From NCBI GenBank assembly GCA_030148325.1, contig JASBTR010000013.1, positions 1 to 45,284 on the forward strand: DNA of 45,284 bases, given 5' to 3'. Below, piece by piece: positions 28,599 through 45,062 of this stretch. Below the pieces are notes generated by a model that was not told the DNA's origin, searched no databases, and worked only from the letters and a program-made list of their open reading frames with translations. Every line of letters begins with the position of its first letter. Within the stretch, counting starts at the first letter, position 1. A program made the position numbers and the translations under genes. The stretch comes from Gammaproteobacteria bacterium (lineage in GTDB: Bacteria > Pseudomonadota > Gammaproteobacteria > UBA6429 > Thiohalophilaceae).

Positions 28599-30251
<1,653 letters not shown>

Positions 30252-31478: not shown

Positions 31479-31976
31479 TCAATCCTTTATGTGCTCATAT
31501 TTTATGACATGGTCCTTGACCACACCTCTTTTTACCACTTGCATTGAATCATTCGGAAATTCTATCGTGCAGGGGGTCGAGTCACCACAATCAAACATAA
31601 CCTGCCCATCCACTCTGCGGATAACGTCCAGGTGCGCAACAACGGGTTTCTCCAGCAGGCCGAAGGTATCTCGGATATAGGCGCTGCCCGTCGTCTCCCT
31701 GTTGACCACATTAAAAACCTTTTTTATCACCTCCGGTGTGACCTGCTTCGAATACGGATAGGGGATAAAGAGTCGTATAATCCTGTTGTTAGGATAAAAT
31801 TTCACATAATGACTATTACCGGAGATTTCAGCCATTTTACCGTTATTTCCCTGGCGCGAAAAATATCCCGAATACACGATTACATCTCCCTTTTCCTGCT
31901 GCGAAAACGCGAACCCCGGAAACAGCATGGATACGACAGCAGCAAACAGTAGCGGAAAAACAGCGGTAGCCTTCAT
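31479..31976 (-). CDS. Exported hypothetical protein, 165 residues
   Basis: A signal peptide (MKATAVFPLLFAAVVSMLFPGFAFS, cleaved near residue 25-26) is followed by about 140 residues without recognisable domains. Two cysteines lie close together in FDCGDSTPC, possibly a disulfide. The rest is beta-rich (VIVYSGYFSRQG, FYPNNRIIRLFIPYPY). It is divergent from the plus-strand gene at 32161 with a palindrome between them. The function is unknown; periplasmic or outer-membrane location is inferred. Confidence 0.68.
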   Translation of the reverse strand: MKATAVFPLLFAAVVSMLFPGFAFSQQEKGDVIVYSGYFSRQGNNGKMAEISGNSHYVKFYPNNRIIRLFIPYPYSKQVTPEVIKKVFNVVNRETTGSAYIRDTFGLLEKPVVAHLDVIRRVDGQVMFDCGDSTPCTIEFPNDSMQVVKRGVVKDHVIKYEHIKD

Positions 31977-33589: not shown

Positions 33590-33658
33590 TCCTGAAGCCG
33601 TTTCCTGAACAACGGAAAATGGTGAATATCAGCGTTTAACTTAACCAAGGTGCTAACA

Positions 33659-33901
33659 ATGGAAATAATCTATTACACTGTTGCTGCAGTCCTGCTCTAC
33701 CTGGTATCGGACTGGATACTGAACCGAATAGAAATCTATCGTGGTCAACGCCTGCCCTACCGCTCGCTGGTGTTTTTTGTGATTATCCTGATCCTCTCAG
33801 TCACCTCGTTCTCACTGATCAGCGCTTTCTATCAAAAACAGGACGCGGCTATCAGCACGGAAAAAGACGCGCCCGCCCAGTTCGACACGGTCCCGAAATA
33901 A
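33659..33901 (+). CDS. Small two-span membrane protein
   Basis: The 80 residues have two hydrophobic segments (IIYYTVAAVLLYLVSDWIL and SLVFFVIILILSVTSFSLIS) separated by a basic loop (NRIEIYRGQRLPYR), then an acidic tail. ATG 33659 has AAGG 8 nt upstream; the GTG at 33650 is less likely. It is the last gene of the SCO-DUF420 group and converges with the minus-strand heme-copper gene, 6 nt away. It may be an assembly or accessory subunit; not a family I can name. Confidence 0.65.
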   Translation: MEIIYYTVAAVLLYLVSDWILNRIEIYRGQRLPYRSLVFFVIILILSVTSFSLISAFYQKQDAAISTEKDAPAQFDTVPK

Positions 33902-33907
33902 CATGCT

Positions 33908-35284
33908 TTATGCAGGCCGCATTGATTTGATTACGATAACCAGGAAGATAATCCCGCCGATAATGGCGATCAGCCCGCCCAGTCCCATCAGTCCCATGCC
34001 CGCCACTTTTTCAATCGCATCCAGACCCTGAGCCGCACCGGCTGTTTTGCGCTGTACGCCATAGCCACCCGACCAGGCCAGCCCGGTAACGTGCATCAGC
34101 TGACCGACGGCATAAATAACAGGCTGTAGCCGAACCATTCTGCCCACAGGTTTCCTGAAACCCAGACGCGGCAACAAGTGGTAGGTGATACCCATGAACG
34201 CAAGCGTTACCGCAACGATCGAACCATGATAATGGGCGGGCACAGTGACATTGCTGCCGCTGATCATAAAACCGATAACGCCACCGACGCCAAACAGCAG
34301 AATCGAACTCAAAAGCGCATTGCCTTCTGCACTGGCTGTCGGCCTGTTGCCGCCTGTTAGCAGGCTATAGATAATGATCAGGCCAAACGGCAGGGCCGCC
34401 AGTCCTCCGCCATACTGCATCAGCCAGGTGATCGCCTGCAGGTGATCGCCGCTGTCCACGGCAAACGCCATATAAACAATCGGAGTGAATACGACAGGCA
34501 GAATACCGATGGCAAACAGAACCAACGCCACCCGGGGTGTAAGCCGGGGCATAAAACCGGCAATTGTCGCCAGGCACAGCCAGGCGACCAGCATCAGCTG
34601 GATATGCACAAATTGCAGGGTATGTCCGGCGCCCCAGAAAAGAAGTTCATAATAGTGTTCCCCCGTGATGCTCTCCGGTATCCCGTACCAGGATGCCAGC
34701 AATGCAAAAACAGCGGTGATCGCCGCAATCAGGGCCGTATACAAACCAAAACGAACCGCGCCTGCGCCACTGATCGTGGCACCGATAGGACGGGAAAATA
34801 CCAGCCCCCGCAGCACCGTAATGCTGAAGCCGATACCGAACATGCCCAGCCCCGTGAAAAAAATCGGATCCCGCAGCACTGGCACATAGTTGTTCATCAA
34901 CGGTTCGGCCGCGCCCAGGAAAGGGGAAATAACGATGATGCAGGAACCGGCAATGGCCAGCCACAGCCCCAGCCAGCCGCAGGTGGTGCAGCCTGAAGTG
35001 CTGTTAAGACTCCAGAACATACCGGCATAACCAAGGAACCAGACCAGCACGGTCAGATCCACATGCACAACCAGGGCGGTATGAAAAAAATCAACCCAGG
35101 GAATAATGTCCTGGATATACGGCGTTCTGGAAAGCACCAGCAGAATAGTAAACAGCCCGGCCACCAGCAGCGAACCCACCGCCAGCATCAGCCAGCCCGT
35201 GCTGATCAGCGTGTTGGCGCGATCTTCAGGCACAGCCAGTGAAAAACCGTCTATCAATGCATTGGGGGGGGATTCTGTTTTCAT
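33908..35284 (-). CDS. Heme-copper oxidoreductase-like subunit I lacking the CuB His-His pair
   Basis: This 458-residue protein has about 12 transmembrane segments. It retains low-spin heme ligands His74 (VVHVDLTVLVWFL) and His353, high-spin heme ligand His351 (VPAHYHGS) and one candidate CuB ligand His221 (WGAGHTLQFVH). The helix that normally carries adjacent CuB histidines is present (about 255-275, LFAIGILPVVFTPIVYMAF) but has no His; the nearest is His281 after the helix. The +4 position after His221 is Phe225, so the active-site Tyr of oxygen reductases and the Glu of cNOR are both absent. It is the last gene after the cytochrome b/ferredoxin/MvhD fusion and a single-span protein. It may be an atypical NO reductase or a heme protein with another role; an ordinary oxidase is unlikely. 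Confidence 0.75.
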   Translation of the reverse strand: MKTESPPNALIDGFSLAVPEDRANTLISTGWLMLAVGSLLVAGLFTILLVLSRTPYIQDIIPWVDFFHTALVVHVDLTVLVWFLGYAGMFWSLNSTSGCTTCGWLGLWLAIAGSCIIVISPFLGAAEPLMNNYVPVLRDPIFFTGLGMFGIGFSITVLRGLVFSRPIGATISGAGAVRFGLYTALIAAITAVFALLASWYGIPESITGEHYYELLFWGAGHTLQFVHIQLMLVAWLCLATIAGFMPRLTPRVALVLFAIGILPVVFTPIVYMAFAVDSGDHLQAITWLMQYGGGLAALPFGLIIIYSLLTGGNRPTASAEGNALLSSILLFGVGGVIGFMISGSNVTVPAHYHGSIVAVTLAFMGITYHLLPRLGFRKPVGRMVRLQPVIYAVGQLMHVTGLAWSGGYGVQRKTAGAAQGLDAIEKVAGMGLMGLGGLIAIIGGIIFLVIVIKSMRPA

Positions 35285-35402
35285 GCTGTCTCGCGCCGAA
35301 GATTAGTCGCCTGATATTTCAGGCTGGGACCTGTACCGGGCAGGGAAATGGGATTGAACTTAATCGTGATACAGGCAGCTGTCAAGCTGCGGCCTGTCCC
35401 AC

Positions 35403-35906
35403 CTATTTAATCCTGAAACGGCCAGTTTCGGAATTGAACTCAATAATCATATGCTGCTCCGGTTTGAGGCTAATCGCCTGTTCCTGCATATATATCGGCC
35501 CATCTACATTGATGTCATCATTAATCCAGACCAGCAGGCGATGATCACCGACCGGCACCTTGATATTCTGATAGATATCAACGCCCTGATCCTTGAATAG
35601 CCCGAGTGGCGCGGCTGTTTTGTTGAAAATTACTTTTCCATCCAGCTGCAACTCCATCGTAATCGGGGAACGTTCACGCGGGCAATCCATCGGGGCGCGC
35701 ATGTTGGGGGGCAACTTGAGCAATTCTTCCTGGCTCAACTTCCTGCATTTTTTCACCTGCTTGCCCACATGCCCGAGCGTAAACGTAATCATGGCCTGGT
35801 TTTCTTCAAGCTGATGATAAGGTGGATAAATAGAAAAATACCACACCAGCCCCATGAACACAGCGTAATTGAAAATCTGCAGCGGTATCCGCAAAACCTT
35901 ATTCAT
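35403..35906 (-). CDS. Single-span membrane protein with extracytoplasmic domain, unknown
   Basis: The 167 residues have one N-terminal transmembrane segment (LQIFNYAVFMGLVWYFSIYPPY) and then a ~140-residue, probably periplasmic, beta-rich domain. Two cysteines (KKCRKL and PMDCPRER) could form a disulfide. GDHRLLVWINDDIN is a notable block. ATG 35906 overlaps the end of the upstream fusion gene by eight bases (ATGAATAA) and has GGTGAG as SD; a GTG at 35918 would extend it by four residues. Translational coupling to the cytochrome b fusion and position before the heme-copper-like gene suggest a structural subunit of the same complex. Not a family I recognise. Confidence 0.7.
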   Translation of the reverse strand: MNKVLRIPLQIFNYAVFMGLVWYFSIYPPYHQLEENQAMITFTLGHVGKQVKKCRKLSQEELLKLPPNMRAPMDCPRERSPITMELQLDGKVIFNKTAAPLGLFKDQGVDIYQNIKVPVGDHRLLVWINDDINVDGPIYMQEQAISLKPEQHMIIEFNSETGRFRIK

Positions 35907-37449
35907 GCTCAGCCTCACCCGTTGCGAGATGCTCCTGCTTTAATTGCGCCAGCCCAGCCTGAAAATGGGCCAGCGCCTTGCGCAGTTTTTTGCAATCCGT
36001 TTCCGCCGCCCTGAAAATACCGATACGGCGGCGATCTGCCCGCTTGCGCAAACCAGGCTGGCGCCTGCCCTCAAAGCGCTCGTCGAACCAGCGGTTGCCA
36101 TGACGATAATAGCAGTCACCCGTACGGCAGCCGGTAACAAAAACACCATCCGCACCGTGCTTCAGCGCATATTCGATCATCGTTGGCGGAATCATGCCGG
36201 CACAAAAATAACTGATAACCGCAATGTTGGAGGACTCGAGGCCGGAGAAATCCAGCGCGTTGTCACAACCAAATATGATCACCCTGTTTTCGCCTTTAAG
36301 CTGCGCGAGTGCGGCGTCAACGTGATCCCGAATGTCATTGATCGGCATCTGCGGCATGTCGATGCCGGTCACCAGTTCTTTTTTCGCATGCCGGAACGGA
36401 TTGGAGGAATGGCAGGAACCCACGCAGATACCGCAGGCCGCGCACAGGTGATCGAGCACCACCACCTCATGCTCCCAGCGTGCGCCATCCGTCCTCTGCT
36501 GCACGTTAATGGCGTCGAAGGGACAGTCCCGGGCGCATTGCTCGCAACCATTACACTCATCCAGGTGAACCACAGCGGCCGGTCCTGTCTTTTTCGGCGG
36601 TAGCCAGGGCATCAGCATCAGAAACGTGGTGATACTCAGAGTCAGAACCCAGACCTGCCCCGACGTCCATTGATCCAGCAGCGGGTAGATATTGAGATAA
36701 AACCAGTCGAAATTCAGCACCGCCGGCGTTTTGGCAAGATCCGCCGCTTCATGACTGACGGCCGGGGCTATCAGCGACAGGATCAACAGGGCCAGAAAAC
36801 TACCCACGGCGAGCCCACGGGGTGCGATAATGGACACATCAGAAAGGCGCTTCACATGAATCCACAGCGCAAAAAACAGGATCACAGGCTGACCCAGCAG
36901 GTGCAGGAAACCCATCAGGGTAAAAAAACGATCGTTGATCTGACTTTCGAGGAAATTTCGCGACATGGAGGCCGGCAGAAAGGGTAAGGCATCCATCAAC
37001 TGGGAGGATTTGAGCGCCACATAGAGCGCCAGTTCGTCCCACACCAGCCAGTAGCCAGTAATCCCCAGGGTCACGACAAACCACAGGTTCGGCACCCCGG
37101 TCAGCCAGGAAAACCAGCGAAATCCCCGGTAACGATCGAGGGAAAATTCCCTGAACATATGCAGAATAATTGTCACTATCACCGCATCAGAGGTGTAACG
37201 ATGCAGACTGCGCATGACACCGGCGGCATACCACTGATCATGGGTCATATACTCAACCGACGCATAGGCACCGGAAAGGCTGGTATCAAAAAAGACGAAC
37301 AGATACAGCCCGCTGACAAAGATAATCCAGAAAAAGAAAAAGGACAGTGTTCCCAGATGATACAGCGGATTCCAGTCGTGCCCGAAGGAAATATTAAACC
37401 AGTTCTCAAGCGCCAGATAGCCCCGCTTAACCGGATTGATGTAACTCAA
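35899..37449 (-). CDS. Fusion: b6-type cytochrome b + 2x[4Fe-4S] ferredoxin + MvhD-like domain
   Basis: This 516-residue protein has three parts. Residues 1-285 are a PetB/PetD-like cytochrome b with His83/His97 and His183/His198 (spacing 14 and 15, the b6 pattern) and a WFYLNIYPLL segment like the PEWY region. Residues ~295-350 hold two ferredoxin clusters (C299-C302-C305-C309 and C336-C339-C342-C346). Residues ~385-495 resemble the methyl-viologen-reducing hydrogenase delta subunit MvhD, with Cys395, Cys416, Cys441 and Cys446 (GCRTGDCYYRHGN). It should pass electrons between quinol and cytoplasmic Fe-S centres or a partner. No Rieske gene is adjacent. It opens a three-gene operon with its own FNR/DNR box. 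Confidence 0.85.
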   Translation of the reverse strand: MSYINPVKRGYLALENWFNISFGHDWNPLYHLGTLSFFFFWIIFVSGLYLFVFFDTSLSGAYASVEYMTHDQWYAAGVMRSLHRYTSDAVIVTIILHMFREFSLDRYRGFRWFSWLTGVPNLWFVVTLGITGYWLVWDELALYVALKSSQLMDALPFLPASMSRNFLESQINDRFFTLMGFLHLLGQPVILFFALWIHVKRLSDVSIIAPRGLAVGSFLALLILSLIAPAVSHEAADLAKTPAVLNFDWFYLNIYPLLDQWTSGQVWVLTLSITTFLMLMPWLPPKKTGPAAVVHLDECNGCEQCARDCPFDAINVQQRTDGARWEHEVVVLDHLCAACGICVGSCHSSNPFRHAKKELVTGIDMPQMPINDIRDHVDAALAQLKGENRVIIFGCDNALDFSGLESSNIAVISYFCAGMIPPTMIEYALKHGADGVFVTGCRTGDCYYRHGNRWFDERFEGRRQPGLRKRADRRRIGIFRAAETDCKKLRKALAHFQAGLAQLKQEHLATGEAEHE

Positions 37450-37506
37450 AATCTGTGTCCTCTGAGATGACGAATTTAAGGTCTATTCCATAGCAGAATA
37501 GTATGG

Positions 37507-37548
37507 ATTTTAGTCGCTGGCGCGCTAACTGTATTTGACCTTTATCAA
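37507..37548 (-). promoter_or_regulatory. FNR/DNR box and -10 element for the cytochrome b fusion operon
   Basis: TTGACCTTTATCAA at 37535-37548 matches TTGAT-N4-ATCAA at 9 of 10 positions. TAAAAT at 37507-37512 (reverse strand) is a strong -10 exactly 22 nt away. The first gene starts at 37449. The box overlaps the stop codon of the SCO gene (37545-37547), so the second module has its own promoter within a same-strand gene series. Confidence 0.72.
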
Positions 37549-38429
37549 ACAGTCGGAGGCTGTTTACTGTAGCGGTATTCACGCACGATGAAGACTATCG
37601 TAAAGATGATTATAATCAGGCCAATAAACATTCCGATGAAAAGAGAATAATCGAACTGATAGCTATCGGTATAGGGATCGTAGGTGGTGCAGAAAAGACG
37701 CACATTGTCCACCAGCGTGGCAAAAAAGCCCTGATTGGTTTTGGGGTGCCCGAGAACCAGTTCCATCAGCGGTTCAATCAGCAACTGAGTATCAAAAACC
37801 TCGCCATAAACCTGGCGATAAATCTTCCCGCTCGCATCAACCACCGTCGCCTGCACCACATGATCAAAGCCATTGGGCGAGGCAAAGAAAACAAACCCCA
37901 ACTGCTTCGACAGGGCGGCAATGGTCTCACTGTCTGCACTGAGCAAATACCAGCCGCTGTTTTCTATTCCCTGTTTACGGGCAAAATGCTGCATTGCCTG
38001 TGGCGTATCATATTGAGAATCAAAACCGATCGCCAGCACGGAAAAACTGTCATTGCCCAATGTTTCTCGCGCCTTCTCCACCACTTTTGCAAGATGGCGT
38101 ATAGTCATGGGGCAGGTCTTGTAACAACTGGTGTAAACCATGCTGATGACAATGGGTTTGCCCAGTAGCGCCTGTGTGGATACCGCCCTGCCGTGATCAT
38201 CCGTCAGCGAGAAATGCCCCAGAGTCCGCCCTATGGCATCCTGACTGGCCTGCAGGGCTGACTTGTACTGGAAGGTCTGGATGGATTTTTTCTGGGCTGC
38301 ATTTTCGGCATTCACATCCGCGAACAGCGCCAGCCATGCAAACAGGGCGGCGAAAAAAACCGGGCAGATGCCGGACTTCATGAACCATAGATTTGGGGCG
38401 GCAAACGGCATCAACCAGCCTCCCGTCAT
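37545..38429 (-). CDS. SCO1/SenC family protein with C-terminal membrane anchor
   Basis: This 294-residue thioredoxin-fold protein has the copper motif CYKTCPMTI and a distal His in GFDHVVQATVVD. An N-terminal hydrophobic signal or anchor (~17-38) is unusual in being paired with a second transmembrane segment at the C-terminus (FIGMFIGLIIIIFTIVFIV). The start ATG 38429 overlaps the ctaB stop (ATGA); an internal ATG at residue 17 is an alternative. It probably loads or reduces the CuA site of the subunit II encoded upstream in this operon. SCO (SenC) genes are also reported beside NO reductase genes norSY in ammonia oxidisers. Confidence 0.87.
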   Translation of the reverse strand: MTGGWLMPFAAPNLWFMKSGICPVFFAALFAWLALFADVNAENAAQKKSIQTFQYKSALQASQDAIGRTLGHFSLTDDHGRAVSTQALLGKPIVISMVYTSCYKTCPMTIRHLAKVVEKARETLGNDSFSVLAIGFDSQYDTPQAMQHFARKQGIENSGWYLLSADSETIAALSKQLGFVFFASPNGFDHVVQATVVDASGKIYRQVYGEVFDTQLLIEPLMELVLGHPKTNQGFFATLVDNVRLFCTTYDPYTDSYQFDYSLFIGMFIGLIIIIFTIVFIVREYRYSKQPPTV

Positions 38430-39283
38430 AGGGCTACTACATCAAAAACCGCAAAAAACAGCAGGCTAACCAGTTGCACCAGTGAGGCGAAGAAGTTGCG
38501 CATGGCCATTCGGGGCGTCGTATCTCGAACCAGCAGAATACTCCGGTAAACAAAATAACCGCCGCCCAGAAGCGCACCGGCAAGGTAGAGCCAGCCAAGG
38601 CCGTAAAAAAAGGGTAGAACCGAGACACTGGCCAGGAGTATGGCATTCCAGAGCACCGCCTTTGCCGCCGCCCTGTCACCCTTAACAACCGGCAGCATAG
38701 GCACACCGGCAGCCGCGTAATCCTTGTGCTTGGCAATTGCCAGACTCCAGAAATGCGGCGGCGTCCAGAGAAACAGCACCATCGCCAGAATGATGGGGAC
38801 AGGCCCCAAATTCGGATCAACCACAGCCGCGCCCGCGAGCACGGCAAAACTTCCTGATGCGCCACCAATAATGATATTGATCCAGGTTCGCCGTTTTAAC
38901 CACACGGTGTAAACAATGGCATAGAAAAAAGCGCCCAGGAAAATAAACAGAGCCGCCACACCATTGAGCGTATAGGCCGCCGCTGCGATGCTAACTACGA
39001 GCAGCAATAATATTATTGACAGCCAGATGGGGTTACTGCTGGAAAATTCACCGGTGACAAAAGGGCGATCTTTTGTGCGCGTCATGAGTCCGTCATAATC
39101 ACGCTCATAATACTGATTAAATGCGCCCGCACTGCTGGATGCCATGAGTATGGTCAGGGCCAGCACCGCCACCTGCCACGCGGGAACAGAAGCGCCCGGG
39201 GTGACAACCATTGCGACCACAGCCGTAATGGTCATGATGACCCCGATGCGGATTTTGAAAAGATTAATAAGTTGCCTGACCAT
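38426..39283 (-). CDS. ctaB: Protoheme IX farnesyltransferase (heme O synthase) CtaB
   Basis: This 285-residue polytopic UbiA-family prenyltransferase has the first Asp-rich site NQYYERDYDGLMTRTKDRP, typical of CtaB/CyoE, and the second region around YAAAGVPMLPVVKGD. It adds farnesyl to heme B to form heme O, the precursor of heme A made by CtaA (42321-43361). It is 114 nt after subunit I, with a strong hairpin in that gap, and overlaps the SCO gene. Presence of both ctaB and ctaA suggests the heme-copper enzyme here uses an o- or a-type heme. Confidence 0.92.
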   Translation of the reverse strand: MVRQLINLFKIRIGVIMTITAVVAMVVTPGASVPAWQVAVLALTILMASSSAGAFNQYYERDYDGLMTRTKDRPFVTGEFSSSNPIWLSIILLLLVVSIAAAAYTLNGVAALFIFLGAFFYAIVYTVWLKRRTWINIIIGGASGSFAVLAGAAVVDPNLGPVPIILAMVLFLWTPPHFWSLAIAKHKDYAAAGVPMLPVVKGDRAAAKAVLWNAILLASVSVLPFFYGLGWLYLAGALLGGGYFVYRSILLVRDTTPRMAMRNFFASLVQLVSLLFFAVFDVVAL

Positions 39284-39354
39284 TTTAGCCTTTGTCTTTG
39301 TCGCGTTGCTTTAAACTGCTCAGATACTACAACTCAGGAGATAAATATTATTAT

Positions 39355-39388
39355 CAGGCCGGACAGTGTTATTACACCGTCCGGCCTG
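39355..39388 (-). terminator. Strong hairpin between heme-copper subunit I and ctaB
   Basis: CAGGCCGGAC (39355-39364) pairs perfectly with GTCCGGCCTG (39379-39388), plus an inner GTG/CAC pairing after one mismatch. In the minus-strand transcript an AU-rich stretch (ATAATAATATTT) follows, not a clean U-run. It may be a partial terminator or 3'-stabilising structure, raising subunit I/II over the assembly genes. Confidence 0.6.
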
Positions 39389-39397
39389 CTCCAGCTG

Positions 39398-41143
39398 CTA
39401 ACTGCCCATCGGCCAGACCGAGGACAGATACTTCCAGTTGATGAAGTAGTAAACAACAAAGGTCACCAGCAGCAGGAGCGCCAGAACAAAGGTTCCCGGC
39501 GCCTCGAAGCCGGAGCCGCCGGCAGCATGGTGCTGATCTTCCAGCTTCGCTGCCCTGGCCAGTTTTTCAGGCTTATCAACATTATAAATCGATGCCGCCA
39601 GCGCCTTGCCGGTGAAACACTCGAGGAAGCCGGCGGACGATTCCAGTTTCTTGCCAAACAGCAACGAACCCACGGTAATCAGCAGGAAGGCCCCGCCGCC
39701 TACAATGGCCAGCACGCCGCCGATCGCTCCTATCGCCATCATGGTATACGCCATTCCGGGATATTCAAACCCAAGCATGGCGCCGGTGAAGTCCATATCC
39801 CAGTGACGACGTGAAACCCCGAGTGTTCCTGCTCCCAGAAAAAACAGAATCAATATCACCATGCCACCGCCAAATATATAGGGTTGCAGTTTGGCCAGCC
39901 AGGGGAGAATCATCTGCCGACGGAACAATACCGGGATCAGCAAATAAGTCAGCGCCATGAACGCCAGGGTTGTACCTGTAACCACAGTGGCATGGAAATG
40001 CGCAGGCACGTAGATCGTATTATGGATAATCAGGTTGATCTGCTCAGTACCCATGACCACCCCGGTAATACCGCCGAGGAAGCCGAAAGTAACCAGTGAA
40101 ATAAACATGCCGGAGAACACCGGATTGCCCCAGGGTGCCTTACGCAACCATTCAAACAATCCCTTGGTCAGTCCCTTCTGACGCTGAGCAACCTCGATCG
40201 AACCCGGTACAGTCAAACCGTGGATCATACTGGCCAGCACAGCAAGATACATGGCGTAACTGGTATTGAAGATCTTCCATTCGGTGCTAATGCCCGGATC
40301 CACCAGGATGTGATGCGCACTGGCCAGCTGCAGAAACGCGATGTAGAGCAGGTAGGCAAAACGACTGACCTTTTCCGACATGGGTCGCGCACCGAAAAGA
40401 ATACCCGCGATCAGATACCATATCGCCACATGGGCTGCGACGTTAATCTGCTGGGAAGAATGACCCAACGCCCACCAGATAACACGGTACATTTCCGCAT
40501 CGATATGGTTGATGTAGCCAATTGACCAGAGAAAGGTGGGAACCAGAATGATAGCGCCACTGGCAATGGTGAAAACGGCAATAATCGCCGCCGTGATGGC
40601 GCCGAAAGTAACCAGCGGAACAGAACCTTCATAGGTCTTTTCCTGGTGTGCGATAACCAGGGTGCCGAAAAAGACGAAAACCTGCACCAGCGCCCCCACG
40701 GCAAACAGGATTAGCCCCAGATAGAAATGCGGTGCCGCCTGCATGGGCACATAAGAGGTCATCATGACGCTCGAATTACCCTGAAACACGGCAACATTAT
40801 TCATGATTGCGCCGATCAGCATGAGGAAAAATCCTGCCCATGCCCAGCCCGGCGTCGCCAGTCGGCAACGCAACAGGGTTGTCGAAGCAAAATGCAGAAT
40901 CGCCATTTCAAAAAAGATGACCCAGAAAATCAGGGCATTGATGCCATGTGCAGTCAGAACCTGATAAAACAGGTCAGCAGGAAGCAGATGCACTTCCTGC
41001 CAACGAGTGAGCACAACCCCAAGTGCGAGAATACCAGCAACCAACAGTGCAACGACGCCGGCAACCGCATTCACTTTCATCAGACGTTCTGCATCACGGT
41101 TAAAATAGAATCCCGAATCGGGACATAGACGAAATGAAGACAT
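39398..41143 (-). CDS. B-family-like heme-copper reductase subunit I with Gln at the active-site Tyr position (candidate NO reductase)
   Basis: This 581-residue, ~13-14-span protein has low-spin heme His66 and His384, high-spin heme His382 (VPAHFHAT) and a full set of CuB ligands: His228 (WWALGHSSQQ), His277 and His278 (SAHHILVDPGISTEWK). The HH-x4-PGI..-x-WK layout is that of B-family (ba3-like) oxygen reductases. Position +4 after His228, where oxidases have the cross-linked Tyr and cNOR has Glu, is Gln232. Loss of this Tyr is a feature of B-family-derived NO reductases (eNOR/sNOR types). With a CuA subunit II, a small peptide, SCO and CtaB around it, and an FNR/DNR box, an NO reductase is plausible. 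An unusual O2 reductase remains possible. Confidence 0.82.
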   Translation of the reverse strand: MSSFRLCPDSGFYFNRDAERLMKVNAVAGVVALLVAGILALGVVLTRWQEVHLLPADLFYQVLTAHGINALIFWVIFFEMAILHFASTTLLRCRLATPGWAWAGFFLMLIGAIMNNVAVFQGNSSVMMTSYVPMQAAPHFYLGLILFAVGALVQVFVFFGTLVIAHQEKTYEGSVPLVTFGAITAAIIAVFTIASGAIILVPTFLWSIGYINHIDAEMYRVIWWALGHSSQQINVAAHVAIWYLIAGILFGARPMSEKVSRFAYLLYIAFLQLASAHHILVDPGISTEWKIFNTSYAMYLAVLASMIHGLTVPGSIEVAQRQKGLTKGLFEWLRKAPWGNPVFSGMFISLVTFGFLGGITGVVMGTEQINLIIHNTIYVPAHFHATVVTGTTLAFMALTYLLIPVLFRRQMILPWLAKLQPYIFGGGMVILILFFLGAGTLGVSRRHWDMDFTGAMLGFEYPGMAYTMMAIGAIGGVLAIVGGGAFLLITVGSLLFGKKLESSAGFLECFTGKALAASIYNVDKPEKLARAAKLEDQHHAAGGSGFEAPGTFVLALLLLVTFVVYYFINWKYLSSVWPMGS

Positions 41144-41145
41144 GA

Positions 41146-41685
41146 TTATTTATCCTCCACGTAGATCTTGCCCACCATGGTATGGTGACCAATACCACAA
41201 TATTCATTACAAACCACCCCGTACTCACCGGCCTGATCAGGCGTCATATTGATGACCATTTCATAGCCTGGCACCACCTGCAAATTGATATTGACAGGCT
41301 GCAGGGAGAAACCGTGCTGATAATCCATTGAGGACAGATGGAAGCGATAACTCTTGTCTTTCTCCAGTTCCAGAATCGGCCACCACTGCCACAGACGCCC
41401 CAGCATATAGACATCGCTGCCGGCAGGGGGATGCACAACCGGGATACCGGCTTCCTCGCGCACCGTGTATTTGTCAATCATTTCCTGCACCCTGGCTCCA
41501 TACGCCGCAGGCGTAGTCTGGTAGGCCTCGGTGGAAAGGTTTTGCTTACCATAGACATGCCAGATAGGCATCATGGCAAACATGATCAAACACCAGGTCA
41601 GGGCAATGCCAATCCAGATGAGTTCCTGGCGCCCGACAGGCTCATTCCACCAAATTCGCTCGGCAGGCGGTAAAAATGAAGTCAT
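41146..41685 (-). CDS. Heme-copper reductase subunit II with CuA site
   Basis: This 179-residue protein has one N-terminal transmembrane segment (~23-42) and a cupredoxin domain with an intact binuclear CuA site: His124 (DYQHGFS), Cys159, Cys163, His167 and Met170 (C-x3-C-x3-H-x2-M in VVCNEYCGIGHHTM). It accepts electrons from a periplasmic cytochrome c or cupredoxin and passes them to subunit I. Its stop lies 2 nt before the subunit I start. The domain is short, as in ba3-type subunit II. CuA argues for cytochrome c rather than quinol as donor. Confidence 0.92.
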   Translation of the reverse strand: MTSFLPPAERIWWNEPVGRQELIWIGIALTWCLIMFAMMPIWHVYGKQNLSTEAYQTTPAAYGARVQEMIDKYTVREEAGIPVVHPPAGSDVYMLGRLWQWWPILELEKDKSYRFHLSSMDYQHGFSLQPVNINLQVVPGYEMVINMTPDQAGEYGVVCNEYCGIGHHTMVGKIYVEDK

Positions 41686-41990: not shown

Positions 41991-42032
41991 ATTACATACT
42001 GTAATTACGCCGCCAACTTTGACCTAAATCAA
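41991..42032 (-). promoter_or_regulatory. FNR/DNR box and -10 element for the heme-copper reductase operon
   Basis: TTGACCTAAATCAA at 42019-42032 matches TTGAT-N4-ATCAA at 9 of 10 positions. TGTAAT (reverse strand, 41991-41996) lies 22 nt away and differs from TATAAT at one base. The first gene begins at 41870. In the opposite direction, towards ctaA, no good -10 is found at that spacing. Confidence 0.68.
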
Positions 42033-42320
42033 TTTGCGACCCTAATACCTGATTTTTTTAATCGGAGAACGTTCTTCCCCGTCATGCTCGAGAACTGAAA
42101 TGTTAAGAATTAATACAAAAAAGTAGGGGCATTTAATTCGTCAATTTGCATTTTTGTTTTTAAGTATTGAGCAACAAAATAAAATGACGCCGATCCCCTT
42201 TTTATTCTTTGATGCTCCGTTCGCAACCGCCTCAAAACAGTCAGGTTTCCAATACCTGTTCCATCTGATAATATTTTGAACGTTTTATGTGCAACACGCC
42301 ACCGGGAGCTAAAGCAGGCC
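42033..42320. other. Upstream region of ctaA
   Basis: This is the rest of the 450-nt gap between the divergent heme-copper operon and ctaA. It is AT-rich. No convincing ORF, repeat or clear promoter for ctaA was recognised; a TTG-initiated extension of ctaA from 42276 is possible but unlikely. Confidence 0.4.
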
Positions 42321-43361
42321 ATGACATTATCGAATAACAATCAAAAAGCTATCGCCATCTGGCTTTTTATCTGCTGCGCCGCCATTTTCGCCATGGTCGT
42401 ACTCGGCGGCGTCACCCGTCTGACCGGCTCCGGCCTTTCCATGGTTGAATGGGAACCCCTGATGGGTGTCCTGCCCCCCCTCAGCCACTCGGAGTGGCAG
42501 GAAACGTTTCTTCTGTACCAGCAATTTCCCGAATATCTGATAAATAATTACAGCATGAATCTGGAGGAATTCAAGTCCATCTTCTGGTTCGAATATTCTC
42601 ATCGTCTGCTGGGGCGTGCTATCGGGGTTATATTCATTATCCCTCTGATCTATTTCATTATCACCGGCAAGGTTAGAAAATCCCTGATCCCCAAACTGGT
42701 CGGCATGTTCATACTCGGCGGCCTGCAGGGGCTGATGGGATGGTACATGGTAAAAAGCGGCCTGGTGCAGGATCCCCACGTCAGCCAGTACCGGCTAACC
42801 GCCCACCTGGCCCTGGCCTTTATTGTCTATGCCTATATTTTCTGGGCCGCACTGGATCTGTTTTTCTCACGCCAGGACAGCTACATCGAAACCTCACCGG
42901 GAAAGCTGAAGCGGTTCTCGGTGCTGCTCACCCTGTTCATTTTCATCACCGTCCTTTCCGGTGGCTTTGTCGCAGGACTCAAAGCCGGTTATGTTTTTAA
43001 CACCTTTCCATTGATGGGCGGGCGGCTGATACCCGAGAGCATTTTCGCCCTCTCGCCGGTCTGGAAAAATTTCTTTGAGAATATGGCGACCGTCCAGTTT
43101 GACCATCGCGTCATGGCGACCATGCTGTTTATCATTGTGCCCCTGTTCTGGCTGACCGCCACCCGTCAGAATATCCCGGTCAGGGCAAGGGTTGGGGTGC
43201 ATCTGCTACTGGCAATGCTGGTCGTCCAGCTTGGCCTTGGGATTTCAACGCTACTGTTGCATGTTCCTGTGCCGCTGGCCGCCGCTCATCAGGGTGGGGC
43301 GCTCATGCTCTTCACCATTATGCTGTTCGTCAGCCACGAACTGTGGCGAGCACCGACCTGA
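42321..43361 (+). CDS. ctaA: Heme A synthase CtaA (COX15 type)
   Basis: This 346-residue, eight-span protein has the COX15-type motifs GGVTRLTGSGLSMVEWEP, WFEYSHRLLGRAIG, YRLTAHLALAF, QFDHRVMATML and AAAHQGGALML, whose histidines ligate heme and are catalytic. It converts heme O to heme A, following CtaB. I place the start at ATG 42321, which begins directly before the first conserved span; an upstream TTG frame adds 15 unconserved residues. It is divergent from the heme-copper operon and convergent with the dnr-like gene. The N-terminal extension and motif details are those of the alphaproteobacterial/mitochondrial form rather than the short Bacillus form. Confidence 0.92.
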   Translation: MTLSNNNQKAIAIWLFICCAAIFAMVVLGGVTRLTGSGLSMVEWEPLMGVLPPLSHSEWQETFLLYQQFPEYLINNYSMNLEEFKSIFWFEYSHRLLGRAIGVIFIIPLIYFIITGKVRKSLIPKLVGMFILGGLQGLMGWYMVKSGLVQDPHVSQYRLTAHLALAFIVYAYIFWAALDLFFSRQDSYIETSPGKLKRFSVLLTLFIFITVLSGGFVAGLKAGYVFNTFPLMGGRLIPESIFALSPVWKNFFENMATVQFDHRVMATMLFIIVPLFWLTATRQNIPVRARVGVHLLLAMLVVQLGLGISTLLLHVPVPLAAAHQGGALMLFTIMLFVSHELWRAPT

Positions 43362-43381: not shown

Positions 43382-44065
43382 CTAAAGAAGATCCCGAAGA
43401 CCCGCGACATCCAGCAGGGTGATATTATTGCCATGAACGTCAATTAATCCCTTGCGGAACAGTCGGGTCAAAATCCGGGAAAATGTTTCCGGCTGAATAG
43501 CCAGCCGGGAGGCGACCACACTCTTTGGCGTGACCAGATGAATTTCCGACAGTTCCACGGCTTCAGAGGGTAATTGATCCAGCAGGAAGGTAACCAGACG
43601 ATAGGTGGCATTGTGCAGGGTCAGGTTATTAATCTCGTCAATTCGCGAATGCAGCCGCCGACTCATAATGGCCATCAGATGAAAGCAGGTTTCGTGGGAC
43701 TGTTCCAGAATCTCTCTGAAAGTTTGCATACTGAAACTGATCAATTCACTTTTACTGATCGCCTCTGCACTGAGCGGATAAACCTGTCGCTGCATGAAAA
43801 TAATCGCTTCGGCAAATGTCTGGGAGGGAAAAATAATTTCCATGACCTTTTCATCCCCATCAGCCGAAATACAGTACAGCTTAACCTGCCCGGACTTCAG
43901 CAGATAAAAGCGCTGCGCCGGCTGCCCGGCCTCGAACAGGTTTTCCCGTGCGGCCAGACTAATCGACGTCGATGTTTGCAACATCTTCGCCATCTGGCGC
44001 TCATCCAGCATTTCAAACAGGTAAATTTCTTTTAATTGTGCAGCAAGCACCTGTTCCGACTTCAT
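43382..44065 (-). CDS. dnr: Crp/Fnr family regulator, DNR-like
   Basis: This 227-residue protein has an N-terminal cyclic-nucleotide-binding-type beta-barrel (LFEAGQPAQRFYLLKSGQVKLY), a dimerisation helix, and a C-terminal winged HTH with SRLAIQPETFSRILTRLFRKG. The E-x2-S-R recognition pattern is that of FNR/DNR proteins that read TTGAT half-sites. It lacks the N-terminal cysteine cluster of FNR, so it should not sense O2 by a [4Fe-4S] cluster. Overall it resembles Pseudomonas DNR, an NO sensor. It is the obvious candidate to act on the seven TTGAT/C boxes of this window. It is convergent with ctaA, 20 nt apart. Confidence 0.87.
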   Translation of the reverse strand: MKSEQVLAAQLKEIYLFEMLDERQMAKMLQTSTSISLAARENLFEAGQPAQRFYLLKSGQVKLYCISADGDEKVMEIIFPSQTFAEAIIFMQRQVYPLSAEAISKSELISFSMQTFREILEQSHETCFHLMAIMSRRLHSRIDEINNLTLHNATYRLVTFLLDQLPSEAVELSEIHLVTPKSVVASRLAIQPETFSRILTRLFRKGLIDVHGNNITLLDVAGLRDLL

Positions 44066-44320: not shown

Positions 44321-44593
44321 GTGAAAATACAACTTATCATAATGGGAAGAACAGAGCAGTCGCAAGCCACAGAAAATATATGGCAAAAGATATGCGAGGA
44401 ACAGGGCCTGTCACTGGCGGTTGCTGATTCAGAAACCGAAGAAGGCCAGACGCTGGTTGAGAAACTGGCGCTACGCACCCTGCCCGCCCTGGTGGTGAAT
44501 GACAGGGTTGTTGCTGTTGGCCAGCCAGACAAGCTCTCCGCCAGGAGAATTCTGCAGATTCTTAGAGAAAAAACTGATATCAATCAGTTTTAA
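44321..44593 (+). CDS. Thioredoxin-fold protein lacking the CxxC motif
   Basis: This 90-residue protein has a pattern like a small thioredoxin or glutaredoxin: a first beta-strand (MKIQLIIMG), helix, acidic loop, then the cis-Pro loop LRTLPALVVNDRVVAVGQPD. Where CxxC should follow the first strand it has RTEQSQ, so it is probably not a thiol oxidoreductase. It starts at GTG 44321 with AAGGA 5 nt upstream. It is preceded by an FNR/DNR-type box and followed after 52 nt by a hemerythrin gene, perhaps as an operon. The function is unknown. Confidence 0.65.
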   Translation: MKIQLIIMGRTEQSQATENIWQKICEEQGLSLAVADSETEEGQTLVEKLALRTLPALVVNDRVVAVGQPDKLSARRILQILREKTDINQF

Positions 44594-44645
44594 TTTTCAG
44601 CAATCCATTTATGATGCCCGAAAAGTTAATTCAGGCGGCACCAGT

Positions 44646-45062
44646 ATGAGTAACAATAACCCCTTAATTGAATGGCAGGAAGACAGCCTGTCTGTGGGCA
44701 TCACAAGCATGGATGATACACACAGGGAGTTTATTGATTTAATCAACCATCTGGGACAGGCAACGGATGAGCAATTTCCGGCATTGTTCAGGAGCCTGCT
44801 TGAGCACACACAGCAACATTTTCAAAATGAAGATATCGCCATGGAAAAATCAGGATTTCCACCGAAATTTATCCATCGTAATGAGCATTACCGGATTCTG
44901 GATGAACTCAAACAACTCGCCAGCACTGTCGAGAACGGTAACATCAGCCCCGCAAGGAGCTTTGTCTGTCGCTACCTTCCTGAATGGTTTCCCATACATG
45001 CCGCGACAATGGATCGTGCACTGGCCTGTCATCTGAAAGCCTCGGGCTCGAGCACCGAATAA
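44646..45062 (+). CDS. Bacteriohemerythrin
   Basis: This 138-residue, four-helix-bundle protein has the full di-iron ligand set of bacteriohemerythrins: His26 (DDTHREF), His58 and Glu62 (HFQNEDIAME), His77 and His81 (HRNEH), then His and Asp in the last helix (FPIHAATMD). It binds O2 reversibly and may deliver or scavenge O2, or handle NO. I chose ATG 44646, the first residue of the conserved core, with AGGCGG 7 nt upstream; the larger frame from 44499 overlaps the preceding gene and is not needed. Placement downstream of an FNR/DNR-type box suggests expression under low oxygen or NO. Confidence 0.92.
   Translation: MSNNNPLIEWQEDSLSVGITSMDDTHREFIDLINHLGQATDEQFPALFRSLLEHTQQHFQNEDIAMEKSGFPPKFIHRNEHYRILDELKQLASTVENGNISPARSFVCRYLPEWFPIHAATMDRALACHLKASGSSTE

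Follow-up and report, generated by a model that had tools for sequence, protein, structure and literature searches.

A cytochrome b-ferredoxin-MvhD fusion and its partner as a putative electron-input module of an eNOR-type nitric oxide reductase

Organization of the locus

We have analysed a stretch of 45,284 nucleotides from a gammaproteobacterium of the Thiohalophilaceae (assembly GCA_030148325.1, contig JASBTR010000013.1), hereafter called the window, which carries a run of minus-strand genes in the order CuA-type subunit II, heme-copper subunit I, heme O synthase, SCO-type copper chaperone, P0003, P0002 and P0001 (Table 1). P0003 is a fusion of a diheme cytochrome b with ferredoxin and MvhD-type domains. 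As we describe below, P0003 and P0002 are predicted to supply electrons to the heme-copper enzyme encoded ahead of them, which resembles the nitric oxide (NO) reductases of the eNOR type. The last three genes had been singled out in an earlier, sequence-only reading as an operon for a respiratory complex, and we observed that they are indeed codirectional. The proposed translational coupling of the first two was also borne out: in the window the P0003 and P0002 genes share 8 bases and, with gene starts picked by script, the pair overlaps in 47 of 70 relative loci, being spaced by 0-35 bases in the other 23.

The run does not begin at P0003, as had been supposed, since the SCO, CtaB, subunit I and subunit II genes (37545-41685) precede it on the same strand, with a separate box at 42019-42032. 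Nor did we find support for the three genes as a functional unit by themselves, the constant partner of P0003 being the eNOR-type enzyme encoded upstream, found in 33 of the 34 P0003 genomes of a class-level sample. What stands of that reading is the broader suggestion of a respiratory unit linked to NO and denitrification, under FNR/DNR-type control, in which a quinone-type cytochrome b is joined to a cytoplasmic iron-sulfur (Fe-S)/MvhD arm. Denitrification-related products encoded in the window are NirS-type proteins, NirJ and NapA; a Crp/Fnr regulator is encoded there also. The source genome is 99.5% complete, with 5.45% contamination, in 211 contigs.

Table 1. Features of the gene run and its surroundings in the window
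Feature	Position	Strand	Description and basis
P0003	35899-37449	minus	TTG start; diheme cytochrome b + 2x[4Fe-4S] ferredoxin + FlpD/MvhD domain; Pfam, profile alignment, residue conservation
P0002	35403-35906	minus	N-terminal membrane helix + periplasmic-type beta-sandwich; partner of P0003
P0001	33908-35284	minus	Heme-copper-oxidase-like protein (COX1 family, Pfam); optional accessory
eNOR-type heme-copper subunit I	39398-41143	minus	COX1 family (Pfam), alignment, Gln criterion of PMC8756737
CuA-type subunit II	41146-41685	minus	Pfam COX2; conserved CuA-type residues
SCO1/SenC-type copper chaperone	37545-38429	minus	Pfam
CtaB/CyoE heme O synthase (UbiA family)	38426-39283	minus	Pfam; plasmid homologue annotated heme o synthase
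FNR/DNR-type box 5' of P0003	37535-37548		Perfect match; conserved in relatives
FNR/DNR-type box 5' of subunit II	42019-42032		Perfect match; conserved in relatives
Crp/Fnr-family regulator	43382-44065	minus	Candidate reader of the boxes (inferred)
CtaA heme A synthase family protein	42276-43361	plus	Divergent neighbour of the run
NirS-type cytochrome cd1 protein	28599-30230	minus	Likely NO source; Pfam

The heme-copper pair

When aligned with ba3 oxidase, subunit I was seen to retain the CuB histidines and to carry glutamine (Gln232) in place of the cross-linked tyrosine. This helix-VI Gln was present in all 45 aligned subunit I sequences, which comprised that of the window, 40 from relative loci, one from Defluviimonas, two from Thermus and one from Thermomicrobium. 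The CuB residues H228, H277 and H278 and the heme residues H66 and H382 were likewise found in 45/45, and H384 in 43/45, being Lys in both Thermus rows. In the cupredoxin subunit II, H124 was conserved in 39 of 40 sequences (one gap) and C159, E161, C163, H167 and M170 in all 40; we take these residues to be the CuA ligands. According to the portion of PMC8756737 available to us, the helix-VI Gln defines eNOR, sNOR and bNOR carrying Asn and gNOR Asp. Since Gln replaces Tyr here, subunit I was taken to be of the eNOR type, and the pair is likely a B-family NO reductase of this little-studied type.

A search of the whole source genome for COX1-family genes yielded four, namely CcoN (with CcoO adjoining), the eNOR subunit I, P0001 and a P0001 paralogue, and no cNOR or qNOR. 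The other three genes being what they are, this search leaves eNOR as the sole NO reductase candidate. On two Thermus plasmids (L084 and L085), the same helix-VI Gln enzyme is annotated as a ba3 or cbb3 oxidase, with nirS annotated nearby only in L084; these enzymes are probably misnamed NO reductases.

Domains and conserved residues of P0003 and P0002

The Cytochrome_B, Fer4 and FlpD/MvhD domains proposed for P0003 were all found with Pfam, the FlpD match in the tail scoring 61.5 bits against a cut-off of 22.3. The cytochrome b part corresponds to b6 plus the start of subunit IV, and its residues 24-285 could be aligned to a profile of seven bc1-type cytochrome b sequences over 257 columns (99.1% probability, E 1.4e-18). 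The best NCBIfam matches for this part were the ExtP/ExtQ families, below cut-off. On the place of the PEWY motif in the ef-loop, P0003 has F247-D248-W249-F250, where the seven reference sequences read PVWY. In 90 P0003 sequences the acid is kept as Asp and the Trp is kept (D248 and W249 invariant), and Tyr is replaced by Phe in 86 and retained in 4. Also invariant in the 90 are the heme-b histidines H83, H97, H183 and H198, seven of the eight ferredoxin cysteines (the other, C299, occurs in 89), and the MvhD-part cysteines C395, C416, C441 and C446, with the reservation that 13 of the 90 rows had been selected by a filter on a motif containing C441 and C446. The ferredoxin + MvhD block aligns with residues 571-774 of HdrA2. 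P0003 is therefore predicted to hold a pair of b hemes and a Qo-like site and, on the cytoplasmic side, two [4Fe-4S] clusters together with a centre of the MvhD type. No Rieske gene was found in the run, and the two Rieske matches of the genome sit on other contigs. Another contig of the source genome (C70, L091, 56-3820) encodes an HdrA-like protein with a FlpD domain, by our reading of the QmoB type, followed by HdrC- and HdrB-like genes.

P0002 had been described as a single-span protein; its structural model consists of one N-terminal helix and a beta-sandwich (predicted local distance difference test score 92.6). It has no Pfam family, and a structure search gave no confident structural relative. 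Residues H46, C54, M69 and C75 are invariant in 72/72 sequences. Scattering of the three genes among relatives would have spoken against the original proposal; P0003 and P0002 proved to stay together, P0002 lying directly 3' of P0003 in 66 of the 70 loci that extend far enough, and P0001 proved partly scattered. The best evidence that P0003 and P0002 act together is their fusion in genome G157 (locus L127), where they form one open frame of 682 residues with eNOR about 18 kilobases away on the same contig. By these sequence comparisons, P0002 is the partner of P0003.

Synteny and genome co-occurrence

Relatives of P0003 were located by a scan of named genome contigs, of which the best 80 of 315 loci were confirmed; with two stretches of the source genome these make 82 loci, many on contigs that end early. 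Alongside P0003 in the 82 we found P0002 in 73, SCO in 60, subunit I in 52, CtaB in 48, subunit II in 40 and P0001 in 39, and SCO was directly 5' of P0003 in 45 of 62 loci. Among 20 class-genome regions (from 19 genomes, one region holding a sibling only), subunit I lay within 16. The order subunit II, subunit I, heme O synthase, SCO, P0003, P0002 recurs on an alphaproteobacterial plasmid, NZ_CP156080 of Defluviimonas sp. SAOS-178_SWC, where hemerythrin follows the P0002 homologue and P0001 is absent.

P0003 and eNOR subunit I occur in nearly the same genomes. In a class sample of 369 genomes, each was found in 34 and both in 33 (Fisher 8.5e-45); in a phylum sample of 398, P0003 was found in 34, subunit I in 30 and both in 29 (Fisher 8.3e-38). 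The two samples partly overlap and the Fisher statistics ignore relatedness. P0003 scores in the class sample were bimodal, with 34 genomes below 1e-70 and other kinds of cytochrome b from 2.9e-17 upward; the threshold for subunit I was E<=1e-60. The class-sample exceptions were G215 (77% complete), with P0003 only, and G264, with a subunit I only, which ends at a contig end.

Two kinds of unusual P0003-like genes were seen. Those of four loci (L064, L066, L069 and L081) have an N-terminal extension, and the gene preceding that of L081 encodes a protein with cyclic nucleotide-binding and rhodanese domains. In three others (L168, L169 and L170, from G552, G488 and G577) two tandem P0003-like genes stand ahead of P0002 and P0001.

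Of the neighbours of the run, a plus-strand gene at 33650-33901, convergent with P0001, encodes an 83-residue membrane protein without Pfam family, relatives of which occur in 52 of the 82 P0003 loci. A minus-strand gene at 31479-31976 encodes a 165-residue protein to which neither Pfam nor NCBIfam assigns a family; it occurs in 29 of the 82 and often adjoins SCO. A hemerythrin-domain protein is encoded on the plus strand at 44499-45062; the Defluviimonas plasmid run likewise has hemerythrin after it.

FNR/DNR-type boxes

The box reported upstream of P0003 is a perfect TTGACCTTTATCAA at 37535-37548, which reads TTGATAAAGGTCAA on the coding strand. Allowing one mismatch at most, and taking expected counts from mononucleotide shuffles, we found such boxes 0-200 nucleotides upstream of P0003 in 47 of 75 relative loci (2.0 expected), and 200-450 nucleotides ahead of the subunit II gene in 36 of 38 (1.2 expected); for P0001, 1 of 41 loci had an upstream box (0.9 expected). 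Over the whole window there are 12 such boxes, against 5.9 by chance; since this excess is only about twofold, the conservation in relatives carries the case. Of 41 boxes placed relative to SCO, 25 lie entirely within the gap and 16 overlap the SCO stop codon. A -10 element had also been claimed upstream of P0003; none was listed there by a sigma-70 scan, which requires a -35 element and excludes FNR-type promoters. Because conserved boxes stand ahead of the eNOR genes and of P0003 alike, both halves of the run are likely under FNR/DNR-type control, and the Crp/Fnr-family regulator encoded near the run is a candidate for the protein that binds the boxes.

Sibling cytochromes with other cytoplasmic heads

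Cytochromes b like that of P0003 were also found joined to other heads: a [2Fe-2S] + flavin adenine dinucleotide (FAD) + NAD head in L115 and L167, and a flavodoxin + FAD + NAD(P)H (diflavin) head in L112. The genes of L167 stand in the order subunit II, subunit I, CtaB, SCO, cytochrome b-FNR, P0002, P0003, P0001, and in L112 the diflavin form lies beyond P0001, on the same strand, in an eNOR run. The L115 sibling is distant from the eNOR run of its genome, and in G082 the FNR-type head stands elsewhere than in an eNOR run; a third copy, in L113, is truncated by the contig end. The head of sibling P0245 resembles the BenC, MmoC and NqrF reductases, and the best 120 relatives of its cytochrome part share the [2Fe-2S]/FAD architecture. 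Known enzymes with such reductase heads take electrons from NAD(P)H. As the sibling heads are of NAD(P)H-reductase types, we read the Fe-S/MvhD head, too, as an electron inlet.

P0001

P0001 had been called a CuB-deficient heme-copper-like protein that could reduce or bind NO. The description is correct in that one CuB histidine is lost and overstated in that two of the three (H221 and H281) are kept, as are all the heme histidines (H74, H351 and H353), according to a profile alignment with subunit I. The His-His pair of helix VII is D280-H281 and the place of the Gln is taken by F225. P0001 thus belongs to the COX1 family and lacks the full set of three CuB histidines of a heme-copper catalytic subunit. 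Its fold is heme-copper-like at middling confidence, with NO reductase and cbb3 subunits tied as nearest folds.

P0001 was present in 46 class genomes, 29 with P0003 and 17 without, and was lacking in 5 of the 34 that have P0003; in one of the 17 (G099), P0002 is at a contig end and the absence of P0003 may be a gap in the assembly only. Where the sequence extends far enough, P0001 lies directly 3' of P0002 in 19 of 56 loci, and it comes directly after P0002 in 12 of the 20 class-genome regions by manual count. In the 17 genomes with P0001 only, its region contains relatives of CtaA, CtaB or SCO in 8 and of ResB, CcsA or TlpA in 3. The suggested role as the NO-reacting partner of P0003 was not supported, in view of the lost CuB histidine and of an occurrence only partly tied to P0003. 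P0001 is likely an accessory for assembly or for heme/NO handling, rather than a catalytic site. The P0001 paralogue of the source genome is heme-copper-like and CuB-poor, and its gene is surrounded by those for cytochrome c maturation on contig C109 (L090, 467-4246), where ResB, CcsA, the paralogue and a thioredoxin-like gene stand in a row.

Proposed function and alternatives

NO reductases are expected to take electrons from cytochrome c or quinol. In view of the shared run, the near one-to-one co-occurrence, the box before each half and the exchangeable heads, we propose with moderate confidence that P0003 and P0002 form a dedicated electron-input module of the eNOR-type NO reductase, with electrons passing from a cytoplasmic donor through the Fe-S/MvhD arm and the b hemes to NO. 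The tail of P0003 would face the cytoplasm and take up electrons, which would move from bH to bL; close to the periplasmic side, the Qo-like site would exchange electrons with quinone. P0002 may aid docking of the cytochrome to the CuA subunit, and electrons would arrive at eNOR either directly or via quinol and cytochrome c. Both the electron direction and a physical complex of P0003 with eNOR are what we infer from the genes.

Several observations weigh against this assignment. In the phylum sample, P0003 is lacking in G426 (97% complete) although subunit I is there, and subunit I is lacking in five genomes with P0003, namely G473, G489, G497, G577 and G628 (82%, 77%, 96%, 74% and 69% complete). 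Sequence distances among the P0003 proteins correlate with those among the subunit I proteins (r 0.88), which shared descent alone would also yield. The four loci with extended P0003-like genes, of 80, have neither P0002 nor eNOR nearby, and the eNOR-like enzymes of the Thermus and Thermomicrobium plasmids have no P0003 in the stretches read; the inlet is therefore a lineage variant, not present in every eNOR-like system. An HdrA/QmoB query matched 12 of 30 P0003 genomes, so that HdrA/QmoB is not a general partner of P0003. The genome encodes a Rieske protein of bc1-like size (a 197-residue frame), and a second route to cytochrome c thus probably exists. Lastly, the Qo-like acidic motif, invariant in the 90 sequences, would be superfluous for mere transfer from cytoplasm to eNOR, and quinol oxidation may for this reason be the main role of P0003.

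One alternative is quinol-driven bifurcation. Here quinol would be oxidised at the Qo-like site of P0003, giving up one electron to eNOR and NO and a second, via bL and bH, to the Fe-S/MvhD arm, which would reduce a low-potential cytoplasmic carrier. The D248-W249-F250 sequence on the PEWY place, the joint conservation of the Qo side and the Fe-S arm, and hosts that include, by database naming, lineages of sulfur-oxidiser type are in keeping with it; yet the sibling heads belong to NAD(P)H-oxidising families, which are donors in their named relatives, the run has no Rieske-like gene, and the HdrA/QmoB query revealed no conserved partner able to take low-potential electrons. We regard bifurcation as unlikely. 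Equally improbable, in our judgement, is that P0003/P0002 is a cytoplasmic donor:quinone oxidoreductase that shares the regulation of eNOR without binding to the enzyme. Such an enzyme would explain the separate conserved box of P0003, the 4 of 80 loci without nearby eNOR, and the location of P0003 and eNOR on different contigs in 12 of the 28 phylum-sample genomes with both (source genome excluded; some assemblies are fragmented). It sits poorly with the near one-to-one co-occurrence, which leaves no sampled class genome of at least 90% completeness with P0003 and without eNOR, and with the frequent placement of SCO immediately 5' of P0003.

Two further explanations concern the site of NO chemistry, and we consider both very unlikely. 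If P0001 were an NO-binding or NO-reducing subunit served by P0003, its position after P0002 in many relatives, its nearest folds, and a co-occurrence with P0003 above chance (29 genomes) would be accounted for, but not the lost CuB histidine, the Phe on the Tyr/Gln place, or the distribution and neighbours of P0001 given above. If the heme-copper pair were instead an oxygen reductase, the run would serve microaerobic respiration; the same question is open for the sNOR of Nitrosomonas according to PMC6967387. The replacement of the cross-link Tyr by Gln in 45/45 sequences, the NirS and NirJ encoded in the window, the lack of a cNOR or qNOR among the genes found in the genome, and the FNR/DNR boxes all argue against it.

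A more general scheme, which we put forward only as a doubtful one, is a class of respiratory complexes, not encountered in the papers searched, in which a single diheme cytochrome b with its Qo-like site serves as the chassis for exchangeable cytoplasmic heads (2x[4Fe-4S] + MvhD, [2Fe-2S] + FAD + NAD, or flavodoxin + FAD + NAD(P)H) and is wired to a heme-copper NO reductase; its Fe-S/MvhD form would bifurcate quinol, with NO reduction driving electrons into a low-potential cytoplasmic carrier.

The electron supply of eNOR is little known, and the electron-input module proposed here makes P0003 a testable partner. If the proposal is true, a cytoplasmic reductant could feed NO reduction, or NO reduction could push reverse electron flow in autotrophs. 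P0003-type fusions, now named 'hydrogenase iron-sulfur subunit' in databases, could also be used as a genome marker for eNOR. Our literature search, which excluded the main eNOR paper (Murali et al. 2024; it may cover the neighbourhood), turned up no publication describing the cluster.

Comparison with known systems

The ferredoxin + MvhD block of P0003 has its nearest known counterparts in the C-terminal part of HdrA2, with which it aligns, and in the Qmo complex (MvhD domain of QmoB). In P0003, however, the block is fused to a quinone-type cytochrome b, and HdrA/QmoB is missing from most of the P0003 genomes tested. With cytochrome bc1/b6f, P0003 shares the diheme cytochrome b fold and the alignment of the Qo region; it differs in having six helices and not eight (as judged from the alignment), Asp for the Glu of PEWY, no Rieske gene in its run, and the Fe-S/MvhD tail. 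The ExtP/ExtQ b-type cytochromes of Geobacter selenite/tellurite operons belong to a different operon, and their family models are without the Fe-S/MvhD tail.

As for the NO reductase itself, the sNOR/bNOR enzymes (qCuANOR) of nitrifiers and Bacillus have in common with the present system a CuA subunit, a B-family subunit I and a SenC/SCO gene in the cluster; they differ in carrying Asn rather than Gln, and the clusters, as far as described in the portion of PMC3475470 available to us, contain no cytochrome b-MvhD gene. With the eNOR of Rhodothermus, Chloroflexi and Proteobacteria, the enzyme shares the Gln for Tyr, the CuB histidines and the cupredoxin CuA subunit II. In the available part of PMC8756737, the eNOR neighbourhood of the metagenome-assembled genome SURF MAG 42 is described as having both subunits and no other denitrification genes. 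To such a pair, the present run adds a dedicated cytochrome b-Fe-S-MvhD protein and P0002.

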